Positions 2,851-16,557 of a stretch of 39,172 nt of DNA are shown piece by piece; position 1 is the stretch's first letter; every line of letters begins with the position of its first letter. The position numbers were made by a program, and so were the translations under genes. This stretch comes from an uncultured Anaerolineales bacterium (GTDB lineage Bacteria; Chloroflexota; Anaerolineae; UBA4142), in assembly GCA_903825565.1 (NCBI GenBank), contig CAIKBD010000494.1, positions 1 to 39,172 of the forward strand, read 5' to 3'. Below the pieces are notes generated by a model. That model saw only the letters and a list, made by a program, of their open reading frames with translations. It ran no database searches and had not been told where the DNA came from.

Positions 2851-3734
2851 CGCGCCTGTCCCATCCCCAGCGCCGTGCTCACGCCCACGCCGGCAAACAG
2901 CGCGAAATCCGCTAGCAGGTTGATGATCGAGAGCCAGTACCGATCATGATTCAGCGCGACGAACGTCACCTTGCCCACCGCGCCCGACTTGAGCGCGCCC
3001 GCGTCTTTGAACGGGGCGGCGTGCGTTTCGAGATCGAACCGGCTCACCGCGAGACACTCGGCGGCAAAGCGCCGCGTCTCGTCCGGCAAAGCGACCGGCG
3101 CAAACGCGTTCCACTTTTCCAGTAAACTGCCAAACACCAAATCGGGCAAGGGGAACAACTGCGCTTTGCCCGCCTGCTTGAACGCGGTTGGCGACGCGAA
3201 CTGCAAACCGATGCGCGACGCCGGCATCTCGCGCGCCAGCAACCATCGCGCCGACAACTCCTCGAACGAAGCCCGCGCCGCCCAGGATTGTTGCGCCGGG
3301 TCGCACGTCGCCGCCGTCACGTCGAACCGCACGCCGTCAAGTTCGATGGTGGACGGTGGATTGCGCGGATCGCGGGTTTCGGATTTTGGATCGCCGATGG
3401 CGGATCGTGGATTTTCGATCTCCGATCCGCGATCCGCAATCGGCGATCCCGCGATCTGCGATCCGCCGGTCCAAAATCCAAAATCAATGTCCTGGGTCAA
3501 CGCGGTGTAGCGCAACGTGTATGGCAATTCCGGCGACACCGCGCCGTTCCCGCGCTTGCCGATCAACGACGAGCAGGTGAACGGACGCGCGCCGTTATCC
3601 GCGTGCAAACGTTCCGCCAGCGCGGGATCGTGTTCCGCAATGGCGCGCAATAACGCGCTATGCGCCGCGCGCCCCAACGCCGGCGGCAGTCCGCACTTTT
3701 CACGCGGACGCAGGGTGAGTACCAGACTGATCAT
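2832..3734 (-). CDS. cas6: CRISPR repeat endoribonuclease Cas6 with a repeat insertion
   Basis: Cas6 cleaves the precursor crRNA within repeats. The 300-residue product has a first ferredoxin-like domain with H44 in RLHADNGARPFTCSSL, the usual position of the catalytic His. It also has the Gly-rich C-terminal loop AGVGVSTALGMGQAR that defines the family. The ATG at 3732-3734 is preferred over an upstream TTG (3746) because GGAG lies six bases before it. Between about residues 87 and 129 a heptamer repeat (3351-3481) is inserted in frame and translated as a degenerate seven-residue period (for example IADRGSE, IENPRSA). Without it the length is near 255. The insert lies between the first-domain strands and VRFDVTAAT, probably in a surface loop. 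Confidence 0.9.
   Translation of the reverse strand: MISLVLTLRPREKCGLPPALGRAAHSALLRAIAEHDPALAERLHADNGARPFTCSSLIGKRGNGAVSPELPYTLRYTALTQDIDFGFWTGGSQIAGSPIADRGSEIENPRSAIGDPKSETRDPRNPPSTIELDGVRFDVTAATCDPAQQSWAARASFEELSARWLLAREMPASRIGLQFASPTAFKQAGKAQLFPLPDLVFGSLLEKWNAFAPVALPDETRRFAAECLAVSRFDLETHAAPFKDAGALKSGAVGKVTFVALNHDRYWLSIINLLADFALFAGVGVSTALGMGQARRIADL
3351..3481. repeat. Heptamer repeat block inside the cas6 reading frame
   Basis: About 130 bp of degenerate GGATTTT/GGATCGC/CGATCCG-type heptamers lie inside cas6 and carry no stop codon in the cas6 frame. Because three heptamers make 21 bp, the product shows a seven-residue period. Confidence 0.9.
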
Positions 3735-3741
3735 TTCCAAC

Positions 3742-3818
3742 TCCAAGTCAGTGGCGAGTGATTAGTGGTCAGTGGTTAGAAAATACTGTCTCACTGTTTT
3801 ACTACCCACTATTCACTA
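3742..3818. repeat. Second-type heptamer repeat (GTGGTTA/GTGATTA)
   Basis: Units such as GTGGCGA, GTGATTA, GTGGTCA and GTGGTTA, then a looser CACT/TACT run, fill the gap between cas6 and csx15 and reach the csx15 stop codon (TAG, 3816-3818). A related block occurs at 22068-22148, far outside the CRISPR locus, so this is a genome-wide repeat family rather than a CRISPR element. Confidence 0.75.
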
Positions 3819-4196
3819 TCTCTTCATCCTCGCCGCATCCCGCACCGCTTGCACATTTAGCACCTCGGCAATTTCGTAACGCGGCGGCAATGCGCCGGCA
3901 ATCGGGCGCGTGCGCACGTGCGCCGGAAAATAGCCACACCGCCCGTGCAATTCCGCAAGCAAGACCACCGCCACAAAATTCAGCGCCGGCGGCACAATCA
4001 ACAGACTCGCCGTCTGCCATTCCTGGGACGACAACGCGCATTGATCCACCAGCGCGCCAATTTGCGGAACCAGGTCGGCTTGCGGATCAATCTGCGTTTT
4101 AACTTCGATCACGCGCGCGATGCGCTGACCGGTCAATTGTTCCACCCGCGCAATTTGTTCCGGCGCGAGCGGATGGGTAAAGTTGAGAAGGAGCAT
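3816..4196 (-). CDS. csx15: CRISPR type III ancillary protein Csx15
   Basis: The 126-residue product begins MLLLNFTHPLAPEQIARVEQ and carries the conserved SLLIVPPALNF strand, the HGRCGYFPAHVRTRP segment and the ending YEIAEVLNVQAVRDAARMKR, all typical of the Csx15 family. Csx15 occurs only with type III systems and is thought to bind or degrade cyclic tetra-adenylate. No nuclease motif is evident. The frame continues upstream to 4307 through a repeat block, but homology starts at the ATG at 4194-4196. As with cas1 and cas2, that ATG has no visible Shine-Dalgarno and is directly preceded by repeat sequence. Confidence 0.82.
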   Translation of the reverse strand: MLLLNFTHPLAPEQIARVEQLTGQRIARVIEVKTQIDPQADLVPQIGALVDQCALSSQEWQTASLLIVPPALNFVAVVLLAELHGRCGYFPAHVRTRPIAGALPPRYEIAEVLNVQAVRDAARMKR

Positions 4197-4236
4197 TTTG
4201 GATTTTCGATTTCTGATTTTGGATTTGGGATTTCGA
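4197..4236. repeat. Short GGATTTT-type heptamer block upstream of csx15
   Basis: Degenerate TGGATTT/CGATTTC/TGATTTT units directly abut the csx15 start codon. The rest of the gap to 4307 contains one hairpin (4259-4278) and no gene. Confidence 0.75.
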
Positions 4237-4258
4237 GTTCTATCATTGCGAACGTAGG

Positions 4259-4278
4259 GAACGCTCACCGTAGCGTTC
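4259..4278. other. Hairpin between can2-like gene and csx15
   Basis: Perfect 7-bp arms GAACGCT (4259-4265) and AGCGTTC (4272-4278) surround a 6-base loop. It lies just after the can2-like gene in the transcription direction and could weaken read-through or mark a processing site. No T-tract follows on the minus strand. Confidence 0.5.
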
Positions 4279-4307
4279 GATTGATTGAAACCGATTGAAT
4301 CATCCAA

Positions 4308-5195
4308 TCATTTGGATTCGCCCAAACTGGACTTGATGACTTGAATCAATTGGCGTTCTTCCGATGGCAACAGACTTTTGTATTGGCGTGCCGGAGCCGA
4401 CAATAAGGCAACGACCCGAATTTTACGCGCATCGGCAAGCGCCAACAAATTCGGCGTCAACAAACTGTCCACGATCAAAAAGCGTTCGGTGTACGTTCCC
4501 AGATATTTATTATCCGAAGCGATGACCAGTTGATCGATCCCGGCGCGTTTCTTGTACGTCATCTTCTGCCGCCCCGATTTGCATTCGACCACGCCGATGT
4601 GATTGCCGCGCCGCAAAACAAAATCCACCTCGAACGCATTGAAATCCACGTTCGCCAACACCTGATCGCACGCGGCGCGCAAAATTGGCTCGACCAATGC
4701 CTCAAACGGATCGCGGCGCGGCTCGACCTTGATTCGCCAATCCCACAAATTATGCGCGCGCAAATAATCCTCGCTGTGGATCAACGCGGGCAGATCGCGC
4801 GACTCGATCAATTTGAGCGCGTCGCCCGTGGATTGATAACGCATCAATTTTGCGGCGCGTCCTTCGGTTTGCAAATAGACGAACGGAATCGCGTGACGCG
4901 CGGCAACACGTTCCGCCGCCCACGCCATCGGCTTGGTCCCGCCGGTGAGATTCAACACCACATTCGAGTGAGTTTGCGTGGCGAGCCAATTTTCCAATTG
5001 CTGTTCAATCGCGGCGACATCGTACGACGCAACGGACAACAACGCCGTTGGTGTCGGATCGAGCAGTTGACGCAACCGTTCCGCAATCGGTTTGGTGCGG
5101 TCTGTGTGCGCCCACACGCACACGCTCGGCTTGAGCGCGCGCGCGACAAGCAAGTTGGGCATCGGCTGTTCGCCGACGAGCGAGAGGAGGATCAT
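4308..5195 (-). CDS. can2: CARF-domain nuclease, Can2/Card1-like
   Basis: This is a probable cyclic-tetra-adenylate-activated nuclease of the Can2/Card1 (DUF1887) type. The N-terminal CARF domain starts MILLSLVGEQPMPNLL and has the ligand-binding loop NLTGGTKPMAWAA at about 82-94. The C-terminal PD-(D/E)xK domain shows PFEALVEPIL (163-172), EVD (189-191) and the catalytic VECKSG (E204, K206). At 295 residues it is shorter than characterised Can2/Card1 proteins (about 370-380), so it is a compact version. The ATG overlaps the csx1 stop (ATGA, 5192-5195), indicating translational coupling. Expected activity is nicking or degradation of DNA and possibly RNA during infection. Confidence 0.85.
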   Translation of the reverse strand: MILLSLVGEQPMPNLLVARALKPSVCVWAHTDRTKPIAERLRQLLDPTPTALLSVASYDVAAIEQQLENWLATQTHSNVVLNLTGGTKPMAWAAERVAARHAIPFVYLQTEGRAAKLMRYQSTGDALKLIESRDLPALIHSEDYLRAHNLWDWRIKVEPRRDPFEALVEPILRAACDQVLANVDFNAFEVDFVLRRGNHIGVVECKSGRQKMTYKKRAGIDQLVIASDNKYLGTYTERFLIVDSLLTPNLLALADARKIRVVALLSAPARQYKSLLPSEERQLIQVIKSSLGESK

Positions 5196-6445
5196 GCTTC
5201 ACCCAACGGCAACGTGTCCAGTGTTTCGATATGTTGTTTGATTTGTTTAATCAGATCATCCGGCTTGCCCGGCTCATCGCGCATCCCGGCATGCAACACA
5301 TCATTGCGCGCGTCGGTCAGCGGGTTCCACAATGCCAACACGGTTTCTACTTGGGGAACGGCGGCAAGGAAAATTGGCGTGAATGGTTTTTCGGCTTGTT
5401 TAGCTTTGATGAAATCACTGGCCTCGGCGCCAACGACATGACTGATCCGTTCGCGCGCGTCGAGTTGCGTCGTATTCAGCACACCCAACTGAAACATCAC
5501 CCAGCTGACAAACCATTCGCGCGCCAGCGAAATGGCTTGCGCCCACAGTTCGCGCTCGGCATACCAATGAATCAGCGTTCGTTCAGTAAAGAGCATTTGG
5601 CGTACCTGTGTACGGACAGTGTCATTGGGTACCGCTACTTGTTCTAACGGTTTGTAGATTTCAATAACGTGTTCCAACAACAAACTGAATGGTTGCGCCG
5701 ATGCCGCGCGTTCCATCGCCGGGCGCGCGCGTTCCACGCGTTCGGACAATCCTGCCACTTGTTCCATCACCTGGCGTGGACGAATCAATTGCACACCTTG
5801 CGAAATCTTGGAGAGCGTGCTCGCGAGATTACCCAATGCGCCAATTTGGCGTAACTGTTCCGGATCGCCCTTCGCCGCCAGCGCCGAGGTCTTGCGTTGA
5901 CGTTCGACGAGGTTAGCCAGATAGCGCGCATCGCCAGTGCGATTAAAGCGGTCCGCCGCGTTTGCCCATTCGAGCAGAGCCAGCATCGGACTGAGATCGA
6001 ACATCGGCGTTCGACCTGGCGAGACAACCTTGCCCACGTCGAACGCGCCGTAAAGCACCGCACGCACATTCACATCCAGACCCGCGCGCAAGAACGCGGC
6101 GGCAAGCAAACCAATCAGCGGCGACGAACGCAACCCGTGTGTGATGTCAAACGCGACTTGGTCACGCGGTTGCACCGCGTTGCCGATACATTCAAAAATC
6201 TCCCACAGTTCGCGTTCGTTCGCGCCAAGTGGTATCGGCACAAACGTCACCGGCACAGAGACCGCCGCGCGCAACGAATCACCATGCGCGTCTTGGGCGT
6301 CTTTGGTCGCAAACACAATCAACTCGTCGGGACGCAAAAACGCGCACGAGGCGACCGGCGCGTAGCGCGCCGATTGCTCGCGCGTATCCAACACATACAC
6401 AGTTTCATCGTACCGCCCGGTGCCCAGAAAAGTCAGTAGTTTCAT
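5192..6445 (-). CDS. csx1: Csx1/TM1812-family CARF-HEPN ribonuclease
   Basis: This is a 417-residue cOA-activated RNase. The N-terminal CARF (TM1812-type) starts MKLLTFLGTGRYDETVYVL and has the conserved DITHGLRSSP loop at 100-109. The C-terminal HEPN domain contains the catalytic R-x4-H motif as RNDVLH (R380, H385). A helical linker separates them. The frame is open to 6670, but that extension is antisense to csm5 and homology begins at the ATG at 6443-6445. This start overlaps the csm5 stop (ATGA) and the gene's own stop overlaps the can2-like start. It sits directly downstream of the Csm interference genes, the usual place for a Csm6/Csx1 effector. Confidence 0.9.
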   Translation of the reverse strand: MKLLTFLGTGRYDETVYVLDTREQSARYAPVASCAFLRPDELIVFATKDAQDAHGDSLRAAVSVPVTFVPIPLGANERELWEIFECIGNAVQPRDQVAFDITHGLRSSPLIGLLAAAFLRAGLDVNVRAVLYGAFDVGKVVSPGRTPMFDLSPMLALLEWANAADRFNRTGDARYLANLVERQRKTSALAAKGDPEQLRQIGALGNLASTLSKISQGVQLIRPRQVMEQVAGLSERVERARPAMERAASAQPFSLLLEHVIEIYKPLEQVAVPNDTVRTQVRQMLFTERTLIHWYAERELWAQAISLAREWFVSWVMFQLGVLNTTQLDARERISHVVGAEASDFIKAKQAEKPFTPIFLAAVPQVETVLALWNPLTDARNDVLHAGMRDEPGKPDDLIKQIKQHIETLDTLPLGEA

Positions 6446-7536
6446 TGTGGTTTCAGCTCCACCTTCACCCAGCCGAGCGGCGCATAGGGCTTGGCTTCTT
6501 TGAGATTCATCACCGCGCGTTTGGAGCGCGGAAACGGATCGCCGGGTTTGCGCGGCGGCGAACCTGGCGCGGCGCGATGCATCCGAAAATCGGCGACGAT
6601 TTGCTCGAACAAGCGCGCGTCTTCTTGCAAGTGCGCGCCAAACGTTTTCGCGTCCCAGCCCGCGCCCCAACCGAGTTGCAACACCGCGCGATGCGCGCCG
6701 AACTTGACCTTTGCCAGGTCGCGGAAAAACTGGGCGATGCTCGCGCCATTATCCGCCGATTCGTACCACGCCGCAAGTTGTTCGATGCGCGCGCGGCTGT
6801 GCGCTTGCACGCGCGGCATCAACTCTTTCAACCAATGCTCGCGATTCGCAAAATGCAACTCGCGCTCGGCAAACTCGCTAAATAACACCTCGTCTATCGT
6901 CAGCGTGCCGTGAAATTCGATTTTCGTCTTGACCGCCTCCAACTCGACCGGCGACCCCGCGCCTTTTTTCGTCAACACCTGCGCGTTGACCAACATCATG
7001 CTCGCGTTCGCATTCGCCGAACTTGCCAAATCGGAAACGTGAAGCGCGCGCAACACATCATGATTCGGGTCGGGACCAAACAATTTGCGTTCGAGCGGTT
7101 GCCCCGCCCAACTTTTGCTTCGTCCAATCGTCGCGCGATCCAATCGCGGCTTGACTTCATCCCAACCCGTCCACGCGAGCGCAGTTCGCAACGCGCCTTT
7201 GAGCGACGAGCCGGGAATGTACGGTCGGTCATGCACGTCCTTGATAAACGATTTGACGCGCGCATCAATCTTTTTCGAGCGCGGCACGCCGGGCAAAATG
7301 TAACGAAAGAAATCGGCGTTTTTGAAATCGGCATCGTCTAGCAATTTACCCGGCAATCTGTACGTGCCTTGCCGATCAAGCAAGAATTTTTCCTTCGCTT
7401 GCAAGATCGCATCCTCATTCAAACGATACGTGCGCCCGTTGGAATGCGCCACGAAATCAAAGTCCTGCCTCAACTCATCGCTGTCGCCAATGTGCAAAGG
7501 CGTCAGTGTGTTTAGCGTAACAGCATAAACCGTCAT
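6442..7536 (-). CDS. csm5: Type III-A RAMP subunit Csm5
   Basis: Csm5 caps the 3' crRNA end of the Csm complex and helps recruit crRNA-trimming nucleases. The 364-residue protein has RAMP features: TLNTLTPLHIGDSDEL near the N-terminus, the conserved DRPYIPGSSLKGALRTAL motif at about 103-120 and the Gly-rich LQLGWGAGWDAKTF. The C-terminus, PLGWVKVEL, is characteristic of Csm5. Both ends overlap neighbours by four bases (ATGA), upstream with csm4 and downstream with csx1. Confidence 0.92.
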   Translation of the reverse strand: MTVYAVTLNTLTPLHIGDSDELRQDFDFVAHSNGRTYRLNEDAILQAKEKFLLDRQGTYRLPGKLLDDADFKNADFFRYILPGVPRSKKIDARVKSFIKDVHDRPYIPGSSLKGALRTALAWTGWDEVKPRLDRATIGRSKSWAGQPLERKLFGPDPNHDVLRALHVSDLASSANANASMMLVNAQVLTKKGAGSPVELEAVKTKIEFHGTLTIDEVLFSEFAERELHFANREHWLKELMPRVQAHSRARIEQLAAWYESADNGASIAQFFRDLAKVKFGAHRAVLQLGWGAGWDAKTFGAHLQEDARLFEQIVADFRMHRAAPGSPPRKPGDPFPRSKRAVMNLKEAKPYAPLGWVKVELKPQ

Positions 7537-8588
7537 TTTGTTTTACCTCCGGCAAACCCAATCGCGAGCGCGCGCCCGTTGCGCCAAACTGGATGATCCA
7601 GTCGAGATTTTATTTCCGAATCCGCCTCAGTTGCATACTTGGGTTGAACATCCACGATTTGTCCTGGCACCGCACGCGCGACCGCACCCAGCACCGCACC
7701 CTCGGCGATCATTCGTACCGTGCGGCGACGTTCCGGCTTGTTGCCCGGCGATTGCACCCACCCAGGAATCGTTTGAATCGCGTATGCCACGCCGTTGGTG
7801 AGCGCGGTCATTTCATCTTTTACCGGCAAGTAACGGCTCAATGAAACCCAGGATTTGCCATCGGCGTCCGGCAAATCGAGTGTACCGGTTTTTTCGATCT
7901 TGCACTGTCCGAATCCGACATTGCGTTCGCCGCCAATCCCGGCGTCGCCCAAATCGGCAAGCGCATCGTTGAGCAGTTGTTCGATTTCAGGATCGCGTTG
8001 CAACCAACGCACCGCGAACCACAAGCCGCAGTCCTTTTGAAACACGACGCGCCCGGTAAAATAGATTTGCGAGTTGGGCACCGCGCGACCGACTTTGACG
8101 CGCGGGCGTTTCTCAATCGTCCAGATTTTTTCATCCGCGCGCGCGTCTTGCGGCAATTGCTTTTTATCGCCGGGCGCAAGCAACACCGTGCCGCCTTGCA
8201 GTTTGTTTTCCGGCGTGAGCCAATTCGCTAACTCGTCGCCGGCAATCAGCGCATCAAAGATCGCGCGCGACACGTACTTGCACTTTTTCAAATCCTTGTG
8301 CTTGGGTGCGCCAGGTTTTGTTGGCTTGGGCAGTTCCAATGGCGTGGGAAACAAACACATGTCACCCGCGCGCGGAAACGCCGAGGACAAGACACACAGC
8401 GGCGCATCGGATTTAAGCGCGTTCACAAATCGTTCTGCCTCCGCCGCGCCGCGCAAAGCGACGATCCGCGCGACGATTGCCGCAAAGAGCGAATCGGACG
8501 CAAAATGCTCGCCGCTCTCTTCCTGCTCCAAGCCGTGTCTGCCCAAATGAAAACTCGTGCCGTTGATATACCACAGGTCGAGTTGCAT
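7533..8588 (-). CDS. csm4: Type III-A RAMP subunit Csm4
   Basis: Csm4 binds the 5' handle of the crRNA and contacts Cas10 at the base of the complex. The 351-residue product has the family's N-terminal signature (FHLGRHGLEQEESGEHFASDSLFAAIV), the Gly-rich loop GIGGERNVGFGQC and the C-terminal HPVWRNGRALAIGF. The ATG lies four bases after csm3, and the end overlaps csm5 by ATGA. A KPTKPGAPKHKDLKKCK basic stretch near 88-104 is a likely RNA-contact loop. Confidence 0.92.
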   Translation of the reverse strand: MQLDLWYINGTSFHLGRHGLEQEESGEHFASDSLFAAIVARIVALRGAAEAERFVNALKSDAPLCVLSSAFPRAGDMCLFPTPLELPKPTKPGAPKHKDLKKCKYVSRAIFDALIAGDELANWLTPENKLQGGTVLLAPGDKKQLPQDARADEKIWTIEKRPRVKVGRAVPNSQIYFTGRVVFQKDCGLWFAVRWLQRDPEIEQLLNDALADLGDAGIGGERNVGFGQCKIEKTGTLDLPDADGKSWVSLSRYLPVKDEMTALTNGVAYAIQTIPGWVQSPGNKPERRRTVRMIAEGAVLGAVARAVPGQIVDVQPKYATEADSEIKSRLDHPVWRNGRALAIGFAGGKTK

Positions 8589-8592
8589 AGGT

Positions 8593-9390
8593 TTATCCTA
8601 CTGGGATCGCATCTTGCGCCCACTTGATCAAATCATCGAATTTTTGTTTTTGATTGAGGGCTTGGACGCTGGCAAATTCCGTTTCAAATTGTTTTTCGTC
8701 GGCATACGATTTAGAGCCGCGCGCCGTGACATGCAAGTTCGCAAATTTAACTTTGCCGCTTCCGCGCGAACCTGCGCCGCCCAGATAATCGTCCTCGACT
8801 AACTGCAACGCTTCGAGCACGTACTGGAGCCGCGCAAAATCGGCGCGCTCGTAAATGCTAAACACGAATTCGGCGGGACCAAAGATCGCGCCCGCTGGCA
8901 CGCGCTCCAACGTGCGCGGCGTTGCCGCGCTCGTCACGCGATCAATCGCCACTTCGGTTTTGAGTTCGGCGAAGGGCAGATCGGCTTTGAGTTTTCCAAG
9001 ATCATTCGCGCTTTCGGGCGTCAATGCGACATCGCGCACCACGAGCAACGTGGATCCTGTCGCTTCCACTTCACCGGGCACGCCAAAAACGTGGCACACT
9101 GGGCAACCACCGTTCGCGTTGTAATCTTCCGGTTTCTTGCACGTGTGAATCGTTACTTGACCGATTTTGTTGTTTTGACGCAAGCCCAACGTTTTTTCGA
9201 TTTGCGAACGCATCTTGCCGCGCAAACTCGAACCGGGGATGTACGGTTGCTTGGTCAGTGGATTGCGAATCACCACCTTGTCCACGCCGCCGATTTCAAG
9301 CCCGACGGATGAGCCGCCAATGTGCAAGCCCGTTACGGCTTCGATATTGGTCTTGATAAAGATGCGTCCATAGAGTTTAATGTCTGACAT
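8593..9390 (-). CDS. csm3: Type III-A backbone RNase Csm3
   Basis: Csm3 is the repeated backbone subunit that cleaves target RNA every six bases. The 265-residue product has the IGGVDKVVIRNPLTK segment, whose Asp (D37) corresponds to the catalytic residue of known Csm3, and the PYIPGSSLRGKMR motif. A C-x(n)-CPVC cluster (HTCKKPEDYNANGGCPVC) is the usual zinc site. GAGSRGSGKVKF is the C-terminal Gly-rich loop. Of two in-frame ATGs, 9388-9390 is chosen because AAGGAGG lies six bases upstream; the ATG at 9396 would abut it. Confidence 0.95.
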   Translation of the reverse strand: MSDIKLYGRIFIKTNIEAVTGLHIGGSSVGLEIGGVDKVVIRNPLTKQPYIPGSSLRGKMRSQIEKTLGLRQNNKIGQVTIHTCKKPEDYNANGGCPVCHVFGVPGEVEATGSTLLVVRDVALTPESANDLGKLKADLPFAELKTEVAIDRVTSAATPRTLERVPAGAIFGPAEFVFSIYERADFARLQYVLEALQLVEDDYLGGAGSRGSGKVKFANLHVTARGSKSYADEKQFETEFASVQALNQKQKFDDLIKWAQDAIPVG

Positions 9391-9401
9391 GATCATCCTC
9401 C

Positions 9402-9794
9402 TTAATTTTTTCCGCCCTTGGCGCGGTGATAAGCGAGAATCGCTTCAAACAGATCAACGAAACGCGCAAAACGTTTGTCCAATTCGGCTTTGTCGTTAGC
9501 CGGCGATGCGAGGACTTGATCAATCGCATCGCCCAACACATCGCGCAAAAGACTCACGCTGTTGGCGCGCGCGGCTTGGTACGCCAGTTTGGGTTTGAGC
9601 ATACTCAAGCGGCGCACGGCATCGGGCTTGCCCCATTGTGCTTCAATTTGCCGTACTTCAGTAAAGATACTGCGAATCTGACTGCGGGTCAGATTTTGCA
9701 TGACGAGCGCATCGGCAGTTTGTTGCGCGAAGGTCACCAGTTCCGCGCCGCTGGCATCAGCGGTCATCACGATTTGCACTTTGGAATTTGACAT
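9402..9794 (-). CDS. csm2: Type III-A small subunit Csm2
   Basis: The 130-residue helical protein ends with the typical Csm2 pattern LDKRFARFVDLFEAILAYHRAKGG and contains LTRSQIRSIFTEVRQIE. Csm2 lines the inner filament of the complex next to the crRNA-target duplex. An AAGGAGG ribosome site precedes the ATG. It lies 11 bases after the NACHT-NTPase gene and 11 bases before the csm3 start, so the foreign-looking gene upstream has not disturbed operon structure. Confidence 0.92.
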   Translation of the reverse strand: MSNSKVQIVMTADASGAELVTFAQQTADALVMQNLTRSQIRSIFTEVRQIEAQWGKPDAVRRLSMLKPKLAYQAARANSVSLLRDVLGDAIDQVLASPANDKAELDKRFARFVDLFEAILAYHRAKGGKN

Positions 9795-9805: not shown

Positions 9806-11872
9806 TTATGAAATTTCTAGTATCGGTTTACCATTTTCGATTCGAATCTGATTCAAGAGTCCAAGCACCGACTGCGTGGCAAGTCGAGCAATCCCCTGTT
9901 GCAAAACTTTGGTTCTTACCTCATCATCGTCTTTCCGCATAGAATAGGCATACTCGGCACAGAAATAGTGTCGTAGTAAATCGCAGAGGAACCGATAGTG
10001 TCGAGGGTAGGCATAGCGAATAAAACCAATATCCTCATTCCATTCACATGCCTGTCTCGTAATCCATCCTTTGCGTTCACATTCGAGATGATCGAAACCA
10101 CTCATTTCCCAATTGGACAACCACGCGGTTTCGTCGAGTTCGATTCGCGCCTGATCAGCAATTCGTTGTGCCTTGTCTCCGCTAACACGCTTTCGATTGA
10201 CTTCTTCTTTACGCATATATTCTGTGATTGCTTGCAGTGCCAATGCCAATTGAGGCGCAACCCACTTTTCACCGGGTTCGTCTAACTGGATTTCTGGGGC
10301 TGTAGACTCTCCTTCATTCGGAGGAACCTCGATATCAGGAACTTCGGCGTTCCCTTGTTGTGATAGATTGGGTTTTCGCATCTCTAATACTTGAACGCGA
10401 TCTCGATCATCTGAACTTTGATCCTGAGAAACGCTTGGATATAGTAATTGGATCAACCCATCCAGCGCACGTGGGCAGATTAATATGTCTAACAATCCTG
10501 GGTGATGTTGAATCCAATCCATGATTTTAGATTTGACTTCGCTTGCCTCTTCATCTTCTGGAATCTTACCTTGCAACAAGTAAAGCGACTCGGCGTGAGT
10601 TAATGCTTCAACATTAATGTTTACTGTTTCCGCTGAATTAAATGTTACCAACGCTGGACGTGATGTAACTACTGTTTGAACGTTGTTTGGCAGACGAAGT
10701 ATCCAGGACTCGAAATGTGGCGCAAACTCTCGTCTGTTTCTAATCTCGTCCACACCATCAAATAGAATAATCCATCTTGACCCAGGAATCATGAAAATCT
10801 GATCGAGTTTTGTGATCTCGGACTTGCCGGTCAATTTGACAATCTGCGCCACGATATCGTTTGCCAAATCATTGGGCGTGGCAAATGTTGCTCGAAGCGT
10901 CATGAAAATTGGCACTGGAATTGGTGGGACCACTTCAAGTTCATCAGCGATATTTGAAATTGTGTCTCTGGTCGTGGCACTCGGATCTAATTCTGCAAAC
11001 CGCTCCCGGTTTACAACGAGTTCTATATTATGCCGATAGGCAAGTGCGTACGCAATACGGTGTAATAAAACTGTTTTTCCAATTCCCGCTTCACCTTCCA
11101 CAACGACAATTCGTTTCCTCATATCCAACGATTGCATAACTGCATCAAAAGCAGTCATATTCAAATTACTAGCTCTTGGCTGGAATGTGGGCGAGAGGTT
11201 TTGTTTCTTCTCAAATTCACCCACTAGATGTGCATGAATAATCTCTCGCCAATCCTTTAATTCCAGATAAGCCACCCTATTCCATTGAAACAAGAATGGC
11301 ACTTCGGAGGATGCTAATCGTGCGGTCGCCGCACCCTTTCTGACAAACACATCTCCAGTATTAAATTGCTTGCCATCCTTTCTTTGGTGAAACTGTTTGA
11401 AAGCAAAGGGACGTGACGCAAGGGTTGGCTTGATCTCCAAATAAGAGACAAACACACCATCAACTTCAGCATATTGTAATGCCAGGTCTGGCACTTCTGG
11501 CGCAATCCAATGGGACAAGGCATCGTAAAAAACTTGTTGAACCCCATCCACCTGTTTTTCATGGATGCAGACGTTCGGGTTGTCCCAACCTTGCGGCTTT
11601 TTTCTGCCGGGAAACTGACCACGCACATCGTTCCATATTCGTTGACCTTGGTCCTTTTTGCCCACACCAAACAATATGAAACACTTTTGATTCGTGCGTG
11701 CGGCGATATTAGCAAATGCGATAACATCACGCGCAAATTCAGATGCATTATCATCATCGTCGAATTTGTATAAACGCGCTTTGAAATCCAAGGTGGGACC
11801 TTCGCGCCCTTTTTCAAATTGCATCACAAACCAATCAGCGTGGAACCCTTCTGATTTATCTTTGATTTGCAT
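9806..11872 (-). CDS. Schlafen/AlbA_2-NACHT NTPase embedded in the csm operon
   Basis: This 688-residue protein is not a known core Csm component. An N-terminal Schlafen-type AlbA_2 domain spans about 10-190: EGPTLDFK (24-31), EFARDVIAFANIA, FILFGVG (66-72) and the closing GDVFVRKGAATARLA. A STAND/NACHT NTPase follows: Walker A GEAGIGKT (260-267), Walker B WIILFDGVDEI (367-377) and the TSRP motif (403-406). A linker rich in Asp, Glu and Pro lies around 480-555. The helical C-terminal region (about 560-688) I do not recognise. The ATG at 11870-11872 has GGGAG upstream and lies two bases after the cas10 stop. Base composition is visibly more AT-rich than in cas10 and csm3-5, suggesting recent acquisition. 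Inference: an extra sensor/effector arm of the type III response. Confidence 0.87.
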   Translation of the reverse strand: MQIKDKSEGFHADWFVMQFEKGREGPTLDFKARLYKFDDDDNASEFARDVIAFANIAARTNQKCFILFGVGKKDQGQRIWNDVRGQFPGRKKPQGWDNPNVCIHEKQVDGVQQVFYDALSHWIAPEVPDLALQYAEVDGVFVSYLEIKPTLASRPFAFKQFHQRKDGKQFNTGDVFVRKGAATARLASSEVPFLFQWNRVAYLELKDWREIIHAHLVGEFEKKQNLSPTFQPRASNLNMTAFDAVMQSLDMRKRIVVVEGEAGIGKTVLLHRIAYALAYRHNIELVVNRERFAELDPSATTRDTISNIADELEVVPPIPVPIFMTLRATFATPNDLANDIVAQIVKLTGKSEITKLDQIFMIPGSRWIILFDGVDEIRNRREFAPHFESWILRLPNNVQTVVTSRPALVTFNSAETVNINVEALTHAESLYLLQGKIPEDEEASEVKSKIMDWIQHHPGLLDILICPRALDGLIQLLYPSVSQDQSSDDRDRVQVLEMRKPNLSQQGNAEVPDIEVPPNEGESTAPEIQLDEPGEKWVAPQLALALQAITEYMRKEEVNRKRVSGDKAQRIADQARIELDETAWLSNWEMSGFDHLECERKGWITRQACEWNEDIGFIRYAYPRHYRFLCDLLRHYFCAEYAYSMRKDDDEVRTKVLQQGIARLATQSVLGLLNQIRIENGKPILEIS

Positions 11873-11874
11873 TG

Positions 11875-14340
11875 TTATTTCTCCCGCAACCACAACTGCG
11901 CCCACCGCGCCGCGACGCCCCACTGTCCAATTTCGCGGTACTCGTTCGCGCTCAACTCGTCGCGGATGGCGAGCAATTCTTTCGCAACGTCGGGGTTACG
12001 GTTCTGTTCGCGTTTGGCGTCGCGAGTTAATTTGTACGCGCCCTGCCACATCCACTTGCCCCACACCGGTTTGAGTTTGAGTTTTTTGGACTGGCGCGCT
12101 TCGTCCTGTGCGAACTGGCGGAATGTTTGTAAAATCGCTTCGGGCGCACCCTCTTCGACAATCAGTTTTTCCAACCGCTCGAATTTCGCGCAAACCTTTT
12201 CAAACTCATTCCAGGTGTACGCTTGCCCCAAGAAATCAAACGCATTTTTGCCGTCCAATGCTTTCGCTTGCATCAACGCATCGTGCGCGTCCTTTGCGGC
12301 TTGGTACAACGGATACTTGCCGCCAATAAACGTCATCCCTGCGCTGAGATGCACGTCGGGATTGTGCCCGCAATAATCCGCCAAATCTTTTGCGATTTGT
12401 TGCGCCAGGTTTGGCACAATATCCCACGGCGCAATCAGAAACGCATCATCGCCGCCGGTGTACACCGTGTAGATCAACTCGGATTGTTCCGCGCAAATTT
12501 GCTTGACCCAGCCCTCAAAGAACAAGCCCAGTTGAAAGCTCAACGCCGCCATTCGTGAGAGAGTCGCAAGGTTTTCTTTATCCTTGTCTTTGTCTTTATC
12601 TTTTTCCTTTTCTTCACCAAACCCTTTGCTGAACAAATCGCCGACATTGTCCACGTCCATTCGCAGAACACCGAGGCGCGGAATGCCGTGCGACTTTTCC
12701 TGCAACTCGTCAAACGTCATACGCGGAATCCGCTTCACGGTATAGCGTGTCAGTTGCGCCGTTGGCACATCTTTAACGGTTGGAAATTTTTCGGCGTCGT
12801 CCAACGCCCACACAACCGCGCGTTCAGTTTTTTCTGTGAACGTGATCTCATCGCGCGCAGACGTGGCAAACTCGAACTGCATTCCAAAGGCGCGCAGTGC
12901 GTTCGTCGCATCAAGGCGTTTGGTATCCTGGGATTCGGAAAATCCCAACGCGATAAATTGGGCTGGCGTCAAGTGCGAACCCAGGTCGCCGAACGAATCG
13001 CACAGCGCGCAAATCTTGCCGCCGCTCTCATCGTCTTGGATTGGCGCAACATCTTCCGATTCTGTTCCGCACACCGCGCAAGTTTTTTCTTTGTTGCCGC
13101 CGTGCGCGATGGGCTCAAACACCCTGGGATACAATTCATCGCCCAGTTCGGTATAGCGTTTCTGTTTTGCCGCACCCAACACCAAGTGCATCGCATCCCA
13201 ATGCTCTTTGAATTTGCCGCGTTTGAAACCGGACGCAGGCACTGGGGTCGCACCCAGCGCGAGGTACAACGCCGCGCCGTGATGCGCCAACAATTTTTGC
13301 GCGACTGTGCGTTGGATGCGCGGTAATTCCTTTTGCGCGCTCACTGGCGCGAGTACGAAAAAGTTGCCGCCGCCAGAGTAGATGACGTTCGTGTACGGCA
13401 AGCCCAACTCGCGCAAGACAAAACGCAACACGGCTTCGGTCAACAGTTGCAGATAAAACGACCGCCCGCGCAGAGTGCGCGCCGCATCTTTGGCGGTAAT
13501 GGTGTAGATAAAATCTTGCACGCCGGAAATATCGCCGCCGATGAGCAAAGCGGCATCCTGATTCATTAACGCATCATCGCCCGGCAGTGGCTTGTTCTGA
13601 AAATCGCGTCGCACCGCGCCGAGCAAATCACTCACCGCGGTTTGATCCCAATCCGCAAGACACGCCGCCAACGCCGCTGTCATTCGCGCATGATCGTACA
13701 ACGACACATCCGGCACGGAATAGTAATATGCCGATGGCACACACCAGGTCGCGCGTTGCATCGCGCCCAACATATTTTCGAGATAGGTTAGCGGATCGGC
13801 GATGTTTTGTTTCGCGGCAGATTCGAGCGCATCGCGCAATTTGTCGTACGCCTCGCCTTGTGCTTGCGCGGGCGTTGCCTCTCGCGGAAAAAGCACGGCG
13901 TGATCTAATGCAAGCAATTGCAACGGCAAGTAGTTCTTGGCACGCGGTTCTCCGCCCTTGCGCAAAGCCACCCGGTCAAAAATCGTGACGAGTTGTTGCG
14001 GGGGTTGCTTTTCTTTGGTTTCAGCATCAGCTCGCTCGCCCGCGCTTAATTTGTCTGCCAGTTCAATCACCGTACTCAAGTGATTGTCGGTTGCAGGCGA
14101 CTTGGTGGAATCATGATGGTAGGTGCCCGGCAGTGCCGCCTCGCGATATTCTTTGGTGGGCAACAAATTGATAAAGCGTTCTGTCCACATGGCATGGACC
14201 GGTTGCCCTTTGCTCACCACATCACTGGGTGGATTCCACGGATCAACCCGTGCGCGTTGTAACACCTTGCCTACATCATGCAACAGCCCCGCCAGCGCGG
14301 CTTGCCATACTTGGTCTTGCAATTTGGATTCAGCACTCAT
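11875..14340 (-). CDS. cas10: Cas10/Csm1, cyclic oligoadenylate synthetase subunit
   Basis: This is the large type III-A subunit of 821 residues. It has an HD nuclease domain (LLHDVGK, H21/D22; YHHDS near 74-78), a first palm domain, a Cys4 zinc site (CAVC 421-424, CALC 444-447) and a second palm domain with DVDNVGD (562-568) and the intact synthetase motif GGDD (629-632). Both the DNase and the cOA synthetase therefore look functional. A Lys/Glu/Asp run (KEKDKDKDKDKE, 578-589) lies between the palm motifs. Of possible starts, the ATG at 14338-14340 is preferred because GGGAGG precedes it; an upstream TTG adds 13 residues. It is followed at two bases by the NACHT-NTPase gene. Confidence 0.96.
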   Translation of the reverse strand: MSAESKLQDQVWQAALAGLLHDVGKVLQRARVDPWNPPSDVVSKGQPVHAMWTERFINLLPTKEYREAALPGTYHHDSTKSPATDNHLSTVIELADKLSAGERADAETKEKQPPQQLVTIFDRVALRKGGEPRAKNYLPLQLLALDHAVLFPREATPAQAQGEAYDKLRDALESAAKQNIADPLTYLENMLGAMQRATWCVPSAYYYSVPDVSLYDHARMTAALAACLADWDQTAVSDLLGAVRRDFQNKPLPGDDALMNQDAALLIGGDISGVQDFIYTITAKDAARTLRGRSFYLQLLTEAVLRFVLRELGLPYTNVIYSGGGNFFVLAPVSAQKELPRIQRTVAQKLLAHHGAALYLALGATPVPASGFKRGKFKEHWDAMHLVLGAAKQKRYTELGDELYPRVFEPIAHGGNKEKTCAVCGTESEDVAPIQDDESGGKICALCDSFGDLGSHLTPAQFIALGFSESQDTKRLDATNALRAFGMQFEFATSARDEITFTEKTERAVVWALDDAEKFPTVKDVPTAQLTRYTVKRIPRMTFDELQEKSHGIPRLGVLRMDVDNVGDLFSKGFGEEKEKDKDKDKDKENLATLSRMAALSFQLGLFFEGWVKQICAEQSELIYTVYTGGDDAFLIAPWDIVPNLAQQIAKDLADYCGHNPDVHLSAGMTFIGGKYPLYQAAKDAHDALMQAKALDGKNAFDFLGQAYTWNEFEKVCAKFERLEKLIVEEGAPEAILQTFRQFAQDEARQSKKLKLKPVWGKWMWQGAYKLTRDAKREQNRNPDVAKELLAIRDELSANEYREIGQWGVAARWAQLWLREK

Positions 14341-14412
14341 TTGTTTTGCCTCCCAGTATTTTTCGCGTGGAGTAACCAATAGCCATTTTAACTGATTCTT
14401 GCCCCGCGCACA

Positions 14413-14467
14413 TCGGAAATACCTCCGAATTTGGACCAGAGATTTCTCTGATGCGCGCGTAGCGCAT
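14413..14467. promoter_or_regulatory. Cluster of three inverted repeats upstream of cas10
   Basis: Three perfect inverted repeats lie side by side in the 137-base gap between csx14 and cas10: TCGGA/TCCGA (14413-14428, loop 6), CAGAGA/TCTCTG (14437-14450, loop 2) and ATGCGC/GCGCAT (14451-14467, loop 5). The middle one has the compact symmetry of a dimeric regulator site. They could be operator sites for the neighbouring Csx14-HTH protein, or an mRNA structure separating csx14 from cas10. No T-tract follows, so they are not a classical terminator. Confidence 0.5.
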
Positions 14468-14477
14468 TTGTGTTACG

Positions 14478-15377
14478 CTATGTCGCGAACAAGGTTTTGA
14501 ACTTGTCGCGCAAGAAATGATAGTCGAGCCGCCCGCCCGCCGGCGTCTGCCATTCATTCCGACAATGATCCAGAATCGCCGTCTTGTGCGTGTCCACTGT
14601 TTTCAGCGTAATGTTGAGCGCTTCGGCAACTTGTTGCGGCGTCTGCCCGACGGCAAACAGTTTCAACACCTCGACTTGCCGCTCGGTCAAACGCTCGGTC
14701 ACGCGCCGACAACGCGCGCGCTCATCGGTTTCTACCCATTCGCGTTGCGTGTTCATGACGCGCGCGGGTGTTGCATCCACCAACGCGTGCAAGCCGGGAA
14801 AATACGCGCCCCAAGGCGAAATGGGAACCTGAATCAGCCGCACACCATCCGCCGGCGCGACGTGCATCACCGCGCCTTCATACGCGCGGCGGCGCAAGTC
14901 ATCCGGCGCGAACAAATGCCACAGCCGATCATTGTGATCGAAATGCAGCATCGCCGCGCTCATTGCCATCAGACCCATAATGCGCCGCCCGCCCGCGATG
15001 CACACATGCAACGCGTGTTGCTGATTCTTGAGTTGAGCGATCAGCCGATAGACGGCTTGCCAAGTAATTTCCGCGTCGGCGTCCGTGCGGATGTCGTGCA
15101 AGATGCCGGCTTCGTTGCCAATAGGCAGAGTGTGCAAGCGGATCGGTTCGCCGCCGCGCCCGGCATAGTGCGCGCCTGAGAACTCGCGCGTGAGTTGGTC
15201 GAGCGCTTTTTGGATGCGCAGATCGTCTGGCGCGAGATGCAAGACAACCACTTGCCGAATCGGTTCGCCTTGCTCCAGCAACCAGTCGAGCGCAAACGTA
15301 ACCACTTGGGCTTGACCGCCCATCGTCGTCACCAAAATTTTGGGGGAGGAAGATTCTGTGAGCATTTTGCCAGCCAT
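14478..15377 (-). CDS. csx14: Csx14 (NE0113)-like CARF-type protein with C-terminal LuxR-like HTH
   Basis: The first 200 residues match the NE0113/Csx14 family of cOA-binding, ring-nuclease-type proteins: KILVTTMGGQAQVVTFALDWLL, ALHVCIAGGRRIMGLMAMSAA, DRLWHLFAPDD and VRLIQVPISPWGAYFP. Residues 229-272 form a LuxR/GerE-type helix-turn-helix (RLTERQVEVLKLFAVGQTPQQVAEALNITLKTVDTHKTAIL). The combination suggests a regulator that senses cyclic oligoadenylate and binds DNA, or a ring nuclease targeted to its own operon. Start is ATG 15375-15377 or 15363-15365; neither has a strong ribosome site. Either overlaps the start of the divergent csx3 fusion gene. It would head the csm operon. Confidence 0.82.
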   Translation of the reverse strand: MAGKMLTESSSPKILVTTMGGQAQVVTFALDWLLEQGEPIRQVVVLHLAPDDLRIQKALDQLTREFSGAHYAGRGGEPIRLHTLPIGNEAGILHDIRTDADAEITWQAVYRLIAQLKNQQHALHVCIAGGRRIMGLMAMSAAMLHFDHNDRLWHLFAPDDLRRRAYEGAVMHVAPADGVRLIQVPISPWGAYFPGLHALVDATPARVMNTQREWVETDERARCRRVTERLTERQVEVLKLFAVGQTPQQVAEALNITLKTVDTHKTAILDHCRNEWQTPAGGRLDYHFLRDKFKTLFAT

Positions 15378-16557
15378 TCTGATTGGGGGCCCACCTCATG
15401 CGGGCAAATCGGTTTTGGCGTACAGTCTGTCACGCGCTTTGCGGTCGCGGCATGTGCCGCATTACGTGCTCCGCGCTTATCCCGATGGAGAAGGAGATTG
15501 GGCGAATCAAGCCGAACAAATACTTGTCCGCGCGATTCGCCTTAAAGGGTACGGTTCGCGCGAATGGGTCGCGCAAATCTGCCGCGACATTGCCCAGCGC
15601 CATTTGCCGCTCATCGTCGATCCCGGCGGCAACCCCACCGCTTGGCAAGAAGCCATTTTCGAACAATGCACCCATGCGCTCTTACTAATTCCGCGCTCCG
15701 CCGATGCGGCGCGCGAAACCTGGCGCACCCGCATCAAACGTCATGGCTTGAGTCTGATCGCCGATTTGGATTCCGATCTGGCTGGAAGCGATCAGCTAGA
15801 TGCCGGCGATCTGATTTTGCGCGGTACCCTTGCCGGCTTGGAACGAGGGCGCACGGCTTCGGGCGCATGTTTTGAGGCGCTCGTCCATCGGATCGCCCAA
15901 GTCTTTCAATACTCGGAAACGGAATTGCGCGCGCATCACCTGGGATTAGCGCCGGTTGAACTAGTCGTCGAACTGGAACGCTTGGGACGAACCCTGGACA
16001 CATTCGATACCGACGGTAATTGGATTCCCGCCAGTTTGGAACGCGTGCTGGATTATCTGCCGACGGCGACACCGCTCGGCGTGTATGGACGAGGACCCAA
16101 TTGGCTGTACGCCGCGCTTGCCGCGACCGCACAGCCGGCGCCCTTGTATCAGTTTGATGCACGGCTGGGTTGGATCGCGCCGCCGAAACTGAATAACGGA
16201 ACTGTGCCCGCCGATTCATCTTTGCAAGTCACACTGCACGAAACGCCGGATCAGACGCGCGTCGAATTCGTTGTGCGCGACGCGTACCTGGATTATACCG
16301 AGGCAAACGGACTAACTGTTCCGCTTTTGCCGCGGGACAAGGGCATTGTGCTCAGTGGTAAACTTCCGCTTTGGCTCTGGACAGCGTTAGCCCTGACATA
16401 CTTGGAGACGCCCTGGTTGGCGATCTATCAGCCCCAACTTGGCGAGCAAGCCATTGTCGTGCAAAGCGCCGCCGGCTCCTTGACACCCGGAGCGTTGATC
16501 GCTTCGTCTGCAACCCTGGCGGACAGAAAACAAAAAACGCCCGCCGAAATATCTTGA
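15358..16557 (+). CDS. csx3: P-loop ATPase/kinase-like domain fused to tandem Csx3-like modules
   Basis: This 399-residue fusion starts at GTG 15358, seven bases after GGAGGA. The N-terminal part is a P-loop domain (LIGGPPHAGKS, 9-18) with a kinase-like layout. Two Csx3-like modules follow: one around GVYGRGPNWLYAALA...YQFDARLGWI (241-283), the second around GIVLSGKLPLWLWTALA...IYQPQLGEQAIVVQS (339-380). Csx3 (Crn3) is a ring nuclease for cyclic tetra-adenylate, and Csx3-AAA fusions are known. In the second module the usual His and Asp around the conserved YDPRLG strand appear as Glu and Gln (ETPWLAIYQPQLG). The first module keeps the Asp (FDARLG) but shows no His before it. It may therefore bind rather than cleave cOA. 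It diverges from csx14. Confidence 0.8.
   Translation: MSILPAILIGGPPHAGKSVLAYSLSRALRSRHVPHYVLRAYPDGEGDWANQAEQILVRAIRLKGYGSREWVAQICRDIAQRHLPLIVDPGGNPTAWQEAIFEQCTHALLLIPRSADAARETWRTRIKRHGLSLIADLDSDLAGSDQLDAGDLILRGTLAGLERGRTASGACFEALVHRIAQVFQYSETELRAHHLGLAPVELVVELERLGRTLDTFDTDGNWIPASLERVLDYLPTATPLGVYGRGPNWLYAALAATAQPAPLYQFDARLGWIAPPKLNNGTVPADSSLQVTLHETPDQTRVEFVVRDAYLDYTEANGLTVPLLPRDKGIVLSGKLPLWLWTALALTYLETPWLAIYQPQLGEQAIVVQSAAGSLTPGALIASSATLADRKQKTPAEIS

Follow-up and report, generated by a model that had tools for sequence, protein, structure and literature searches.

Coupling of cyclic oligoadenylate (cOA) to transcription by proteins that join a CARF sensor to a helix-turn-helix (HTH) domain has long been proposed. 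Such regulators are a known kind, represented by archaeal Csa3 and by the NE0113 proteins, which Makarova et al. (2014; PMC4012209) predicted to be direct transcription regulators; the principle is therefore not new, even if the treatment of these proteins in that paper names no operator, target or divergent partner. Csx14, in turn, has been placed in the Crn1 family of ring nucleases (Hoikkala et al. 2025; PMC12409355). Here we consider a bacterial CARF-HTH protein, hereafter called the regulator, encoded upstream of cas10 in contig CAIKBD010000494.1 of an uncultured Anaerolineales bacterium (Chloroflexota), the whole 39,172 nucleotides of which constitute our window. We regard it as probable that the regulator is a dedicated cOA sensor which activates the type III effector operon of its own locus via tandem dyads, is switched by cOA, is not a ring nuclease and has a functional partner carrying Csx3 domains.

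The open reading frame of the regulator extends on the minus strand from ATG at 15377 to TAG at 14480-14478 and encodes 299 residues that combine, in one chain as in CARF-HTH transcription regulators, a sensor matching Pfam Cas_NE0113 (PF09623; residues 24-206, E 2e-40, 139.2 bits vs. a gathering cut-off of 23) and a GerE domain (residues 229-269, E 4e-10, 39.5 bits vs. a cut-off of 23.5). The PADLOC profile PDLC01855 'CARF3--CARF' spans the whole protein (E 7.5e-113). Both domains recognized in a previous sequence-only reading of this DNA are thus recovered above their Pfam cut-offs, but its label of Csx14 is not, since the NCBIfam csx14 model (TIGR03642) reaches 54.4 bits, below its curated cut-off of 90.35; judging from these scores, 'NE0113/Crn1-like CARF' is the safer name for the sensor. 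The ring nuclease model cas_NE0113 (TIGR02584) likewise scores 38.7 bits, below its curated cut-off of 80.65, and the match to the NCBIfam Csa3 model is weak (19 vs. 60 bits). The AlphaFold model of the regulator (predicted local distance difference test score 91.7) has a Rossmann-type CARF domain, a long linker helix (204-229), HTH helices at 232-242, 247-253 and 258-275 and a C-terminal helix at 286-298. Foldseek matches this model to Crn1/Sso2081, the CARF domain of Cad1, Csa3 and the response regulators StyR and FixJ, so that the C-terminal HTH proposed before stands up to structural comparison.

The CARF fold and the conserved GGRR motif of its pocket suggest that the regulator binds cOA. 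The catalytic residues of Crn1 are Ser11 and Lys106 (PMC10018336), in motifs that in the regulator change from GTS to GGQ (motif I) and from GRK to GRR (motif II), the corresponding Q22 and R132 being invariant in 43 out of 43 sequences. With invariant Gln and Arg in place of the catalytic Ser and Lys, the regulator is unlikely to cleave cOA rings, which weakens the earlier suggestion of such an activity; sensing without turnover, as in Csa3 (PMC8844856), is expected instead.

The gap between the stop codon of the regulator and the ATG of cas10 contains a candidate operator formed by two 16-bp dyads of the type TCNGA-N6-TCNGA, which lie 23 bp apart and are followed, after 22 nt, by TAAAAT (table 1; dyad positions are computed with the -10 box taken as -12 to -7). 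The regulator lies upstream of the csm genes on the same strand, as previously recognized, but does not head their operon, which starts at cas10 because a gap of 137 bp with its own promoter separates the two genes; a TTG codon at 14379 is located at or upstream of the predicted start of cas10 transcription. The cas10 promoter has no -35 consensus, consistent with the failure of a scan for consensus sigma-70 promoters to find any between 14300 and 15500. The palindromes were also considered as an intrinsic terminator, an interpretation we rejected since no terminator scored there.

To evaluate conservation, we used a module score (maximum 20) combining the symmetry within each dyad, the likeness between the dyads and the presence of a TANNNT box 21-23 nt further on. 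Of 90 related loci, 42 have a score of at least 14 upstream of the next operon, against 0.2 expected from dinucleotide shuffles, and none of 909 random windows taken from the same loci shows the module. Its spacing is narrowly distributed, with a sharp peak at a gap of 22 (32 loci) and dyad distances of 22 or 23 (31 and 11 loci, respectively). When 400 genomes of the phylum were searched for four exact phased half-sites, only four sites emerged besides simple tandem repeats, all directly behind a gene of the regulator family and two of them outside the discovery set. Among cas10 loci without the regulator, just 1 of 21 reaches a score of 14, and TCNGA half-sites are missing from this match. 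Module counts, genome search and regulator-less controls together point to an operator conserved before CRISPR-Cas genes. Some clades have other half-sites in the same geometry, for example TCAGC-N6-GCTGA in Chloroflexus and Roseiflexus; a covariation with the recognition helix (KTVD with TCNGA, STVN with TCAGC) is visible, but is confounded by phylogeny and was not used as proof.

The first downstream genes mostly encode Cas10 (Csm1-like in 28/72 and Cmr2-like in 26/72, in overlapping sets) or Cmr1; hence, the predicted target is the effector operon responsible for cOA synthesis, and a linkage restricted to csm operons can be rejected. Csx15 accounts for six of the 72 first downstream genes, apparently in loci of Thermoflexus type (L121, L122, L125, L131, L148, L057 and L058), in which the operon of the regulator may include a ring nuclease. 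The module of L097 precedes a Cas10-type operon 580 bp away. In L111, a second full module, located about 2.39 kb upstream of where the regulator starts, faces a separate Cmr1-led operon, so that two type III systems may here be under the control of a single regulator. In the genome of the window, a scan for a wider regulon returned one further site with one mismatch (C37), which is about chance level.

Consensus -35 sequences are generally poor, with at least four matches out of six in only 11 of 49 promoters (mean, 2.96 of 6). The peak at gap 22 places one of the dyads near -42; this register and the absence of a -35 consensus from most promoters both speak for class II activation, as far as sequences can indicate. 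The direct regulation of the locus that had been proposed is thereby supported for the region 14341-14477, which holds the conserved tandem operator at a class II activator position, and of the two outcomes then envisaged, induction or shut-off, this position favors the former. The second region proposed for DNA binding, 15340-15400, shows no such operator in the window and corresponds to the head-to-head overlap of the regulator with the Csx3-domain gene. An operator in this overlap was also dismissed for the related loci, since the full module is found in 0/93 on the csx3 side and 0/98 on the regulator side; a lone exact dyad followed by 22 nt and a -10 box faces csx3 in only two of 93 loci, L042 (same contig as L100) and L093.

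In the mechanism that we favor, the tandem dyads of the cas10 promoter, near -42.5 and -65.5, would be occupied by two regulator dimers, which would bring in RNA polymerase where a good -35 box is missing. cOA would bind in the CARF dimer and switch its activity, the ligand being probably cyclic tetra-adenylate (cA4) because effectors of Card1 and Csx1 type are encoded in the locus; the GGDD cyclase motif of cas10 also counts in support. The switch would most likely be to the active state, producing positive feedback during infection; sequence does not reveal in which direction cOA acts, and induction is the reading that we prefer. The regulator would not act as a ring nuclease, and the divergently encoded protein with a P-loop and tandem Csx3 domains would be its functional partner, probably a cOA-binding nucleoside triphosphatase (NTPase) that tunes either the regulator or the signal.

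Several points weigh against this mechanism. About half of the loci are without the module, as are six distant CARF-HTH relatives; the scored loci share ancestry, and the spacing rule had been noticed before it was tested, which is mitigated by the shuffles and the genome-wide search. Moreover, four promoters of Thermoflexia type have a good TTGAC -35 box that a repressor could block as well, and the DNA binding of Csa3 in vitro is unchanged by cA4 (PMC8699464, PMC8844856), so that gating may require a partner or the polymerase. The same Csa3 result bears on the possibility of opposite gating, in which the apo-protein would activate and keep the operon ready until cOA releases it, turning the operon off as negative feedback. 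The operator position would suit an activator in either ligand state, and solution data suggested a cA4-induced rearrangement of the Csa3 HTH that is possibly incompatible with DNA binding (PMC8844856), but this binding is in fact unaltered and nothing in the sequence favors such a sign of response, which we consider unlikely.

We find it distinctly improbable that the regulator is a repressor relieved by cOA, with dyads flanking or overlapping the -35 region. The proximal dyad does end at -35, and in four loci (L103, L109, L111, L094) its last half-site shares bases with a good TTGAC box; yet spacer and -10 box are not covered by the dyads, which are situated upstream of -35, the -42.5 register is fixed at gap 22, and the deficient -35 boxes of most promoters are those expected of activator-dependent transcription. 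Even less credible, in our opinion, is that the dyads are bound by another regulator while the CARF-HTH protein has its function elsewhere or works as a ring nuclease. Dyad binding by this protein is a prediction, and the inclusion of Csx14 in the Crn1 family, as well as the RefSeq name of a Rhodothermus homologue, would be compatible with an enzymatic role; however, even in lineages that have diverged widely the array lies directly behind the regulator gene, cas10 loci that lack this gene almost never contain the array, and the residues equivalent to Ser11 and Lys106 of Crn1 are replaced.

The candidate partner of the regulator starts with GTG at 15358, overlapping the start of the regulator by 20 nt. 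Its gene is head to head with that of the regulator in 77 of 80 loci (38/40 of an overlapping set), with start codons that usually overlap or are separated by 0-150 bp; a strong regulator match is accompanied by the partner in 42 of 42 sampled genomes and, conversely, the regulator accompanies nearly all strong partner matches. The module also occurs in two loci without the partner gene, L117 and L128. The structure model of the partner comprises a SIMIBI-like NTPase, closest to GPN-loop GTPase, FtsY and FleN rather than to clear AAA+ proteins, and tandem Csx3 domains (Foldseek matches 3wzg and 6yud). Copy 1 of the latter retains the equivalents of R46, D69 and R71, copy 2 does not, and neither has an equivalent of H60, which is essential in AfCsx3 (PMC7371418). 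We consequently rejected the partner as a working Crn3: it shares the Csx3 fold, but in tandem copies fused to a P-loop domain and without H60. Tentatively, and with more doubt than conviction, we envisage a widespread chloroflexotal module in which two catalytically lost sensors derived from ring nucleases, the CARF-LuxR activator and the P-loop/tandem-Csx3 protein, would read cOA twice and set the expression of type III CRISPR systems by way of a single stereotyped promoter of class II; this would be a two-sensor, transcriptional gain control on cOA signaling without described equivalent.

Relatives of the regulator are present in 58 of the 400 sampled genomes, of which the 30 best are full length, including the HTH, and conserve the C-terminal tail (W276, F293); scanning one genome per species yielded 80 loci, almost all in Chloroflexota. 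None was found in viral contigs or phages, and the only plasmid-borne relatives are distant ones on two plasmids of Rhodothermus. Of these, the protein encoded at 4010-4915 of Rhodothermus marinus pRMAR01 (L238) directly precedes csm1 without a Csx3 neighbor, has GEQ as motif I and GRK as motif II, and is named 'CRISPR-associated ring nuclease' in RefSeq.

The locus of the window is a complete type III-A system in the order CRISPR array (1-722), cas1, cas6, a 163-residue protein, Card1-like and Csx1-like genes, csm5 to csm2, a NACHT protein, cas10, the regulator and the divergent Csx3 gene (table 1). The NACHT protein (9806-11923, minus strand, 705 residues) carries Schlafen AlbA_2 and NACHT/STAND NTPase domains, and its gene is placed between cas10 and csm2 of the csm operon; L079 is arranged alike, with weaker matches downstream of cas10 in L101 and L138. 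The 163-residue protein (3816-4307, minus strand), directly 3' of the Card1-like gene, has no Pfam match; since homologues of it lie in many related type III loci, it seems to be an accessory protein of type III systems that has so far not been described. Repeats rich in GATCCGCGATCC (families D3-D6) occur at 1184-1301, 2293-2395, 2766-2867, 3354-3468 and 4193-4248, among cas1, cas6 and their neighbors.

Table 1. Coordinates of the regulator, its candidate operator and associated genes in the window
Feature	Position	Strand	Remarks
CARF(NE0113/Crn1-like)-LuxR HTH regulator, 299 aa	14478..15377	-	ORF, Pfam, PADLOC, structure model
Candidate distal operator dyad TCAGAGAAATCTCTGG	14436..14451	-	about -73 to -58, centre -65.5
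Candidate proximal operator dyad TCGGAGGTATTTCCGA	14413..14428	-	about -50 to -35, centre -42.5
-10 box TAAAAT of cas10/csm operon	14385..14390	-	22 nt past proximal dyad; predicted start near 14378
cas10/csm1	11875..14340	-	HD and GGDD cyclase motif; ATG 14340 after GGGAGG
Divergent partner, SIMIBI-like P-loop NTPase with two Csx3 domains	15358..16557	+	PADLOC C3a67 'AAA-Csx3'
csm2, csm3, csm4, csm5	6442..9794	-	profile matches
CARF-HEPN Csx1/Csm6 effector	5192-6670	-	profile matches
Card1/Can2-type CARF-PDDEXK effector	4308-5195	-	profile matches

Operator architecture and obligate partner appear to be undescribed: the literature searched contains no description of the operator, the promoter register or the linkage with the Csx3 partner, although the CARF classification of 2020 may list the gene pair. 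With a predicted operator in a sigma-70-like promoter of the operon that makes cOA, the coupling of cOA to transcription becomes testable by simple reporters. The finding also points to a nearly obligate, uncharacterized partner, and implies that annotations as 'CRISPR-associated ring nuclease' in the NE0113 family may hide regulators.

Among known systems, the regulator is a member of the NE0113/Csx14/CARF3 family (PF09623, TIGR02584, TIGR03642, PDLC01855) according to Pfam and PADLOC, while remaining below both NCBIfam cut-offs. With Crn1 (Sso2081) it shares the CARF fold and alignable sequence, but differs in GGQ/GRR and in the fused HTH. A dyad centre of about -42.5 is a lux-box-like position, common to class II activators of LuxR/NarL/FixJ type, which also have the GerE HTH; the regulator departs from these in its CARF sensor, its 5-bp TCNGA half-sites 11 bp apart and the usual presence of two dyads. 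Csa3 resembles it in the CARF sensor with HTH, the lack of a ring-nuclease motif, the palindromic sites before CRISPR genes and the Foldseek match. However, the HTH of the archaeal Csa3 is winged and MarR-like, and its targets are adaptation genes and arrays, whereas the regulator presented here has a GerE/LuxR HTH of LuxR/NarL type, bacterial -10 promoters, a type III effector operon as predicted target and a fixed activator spacing.
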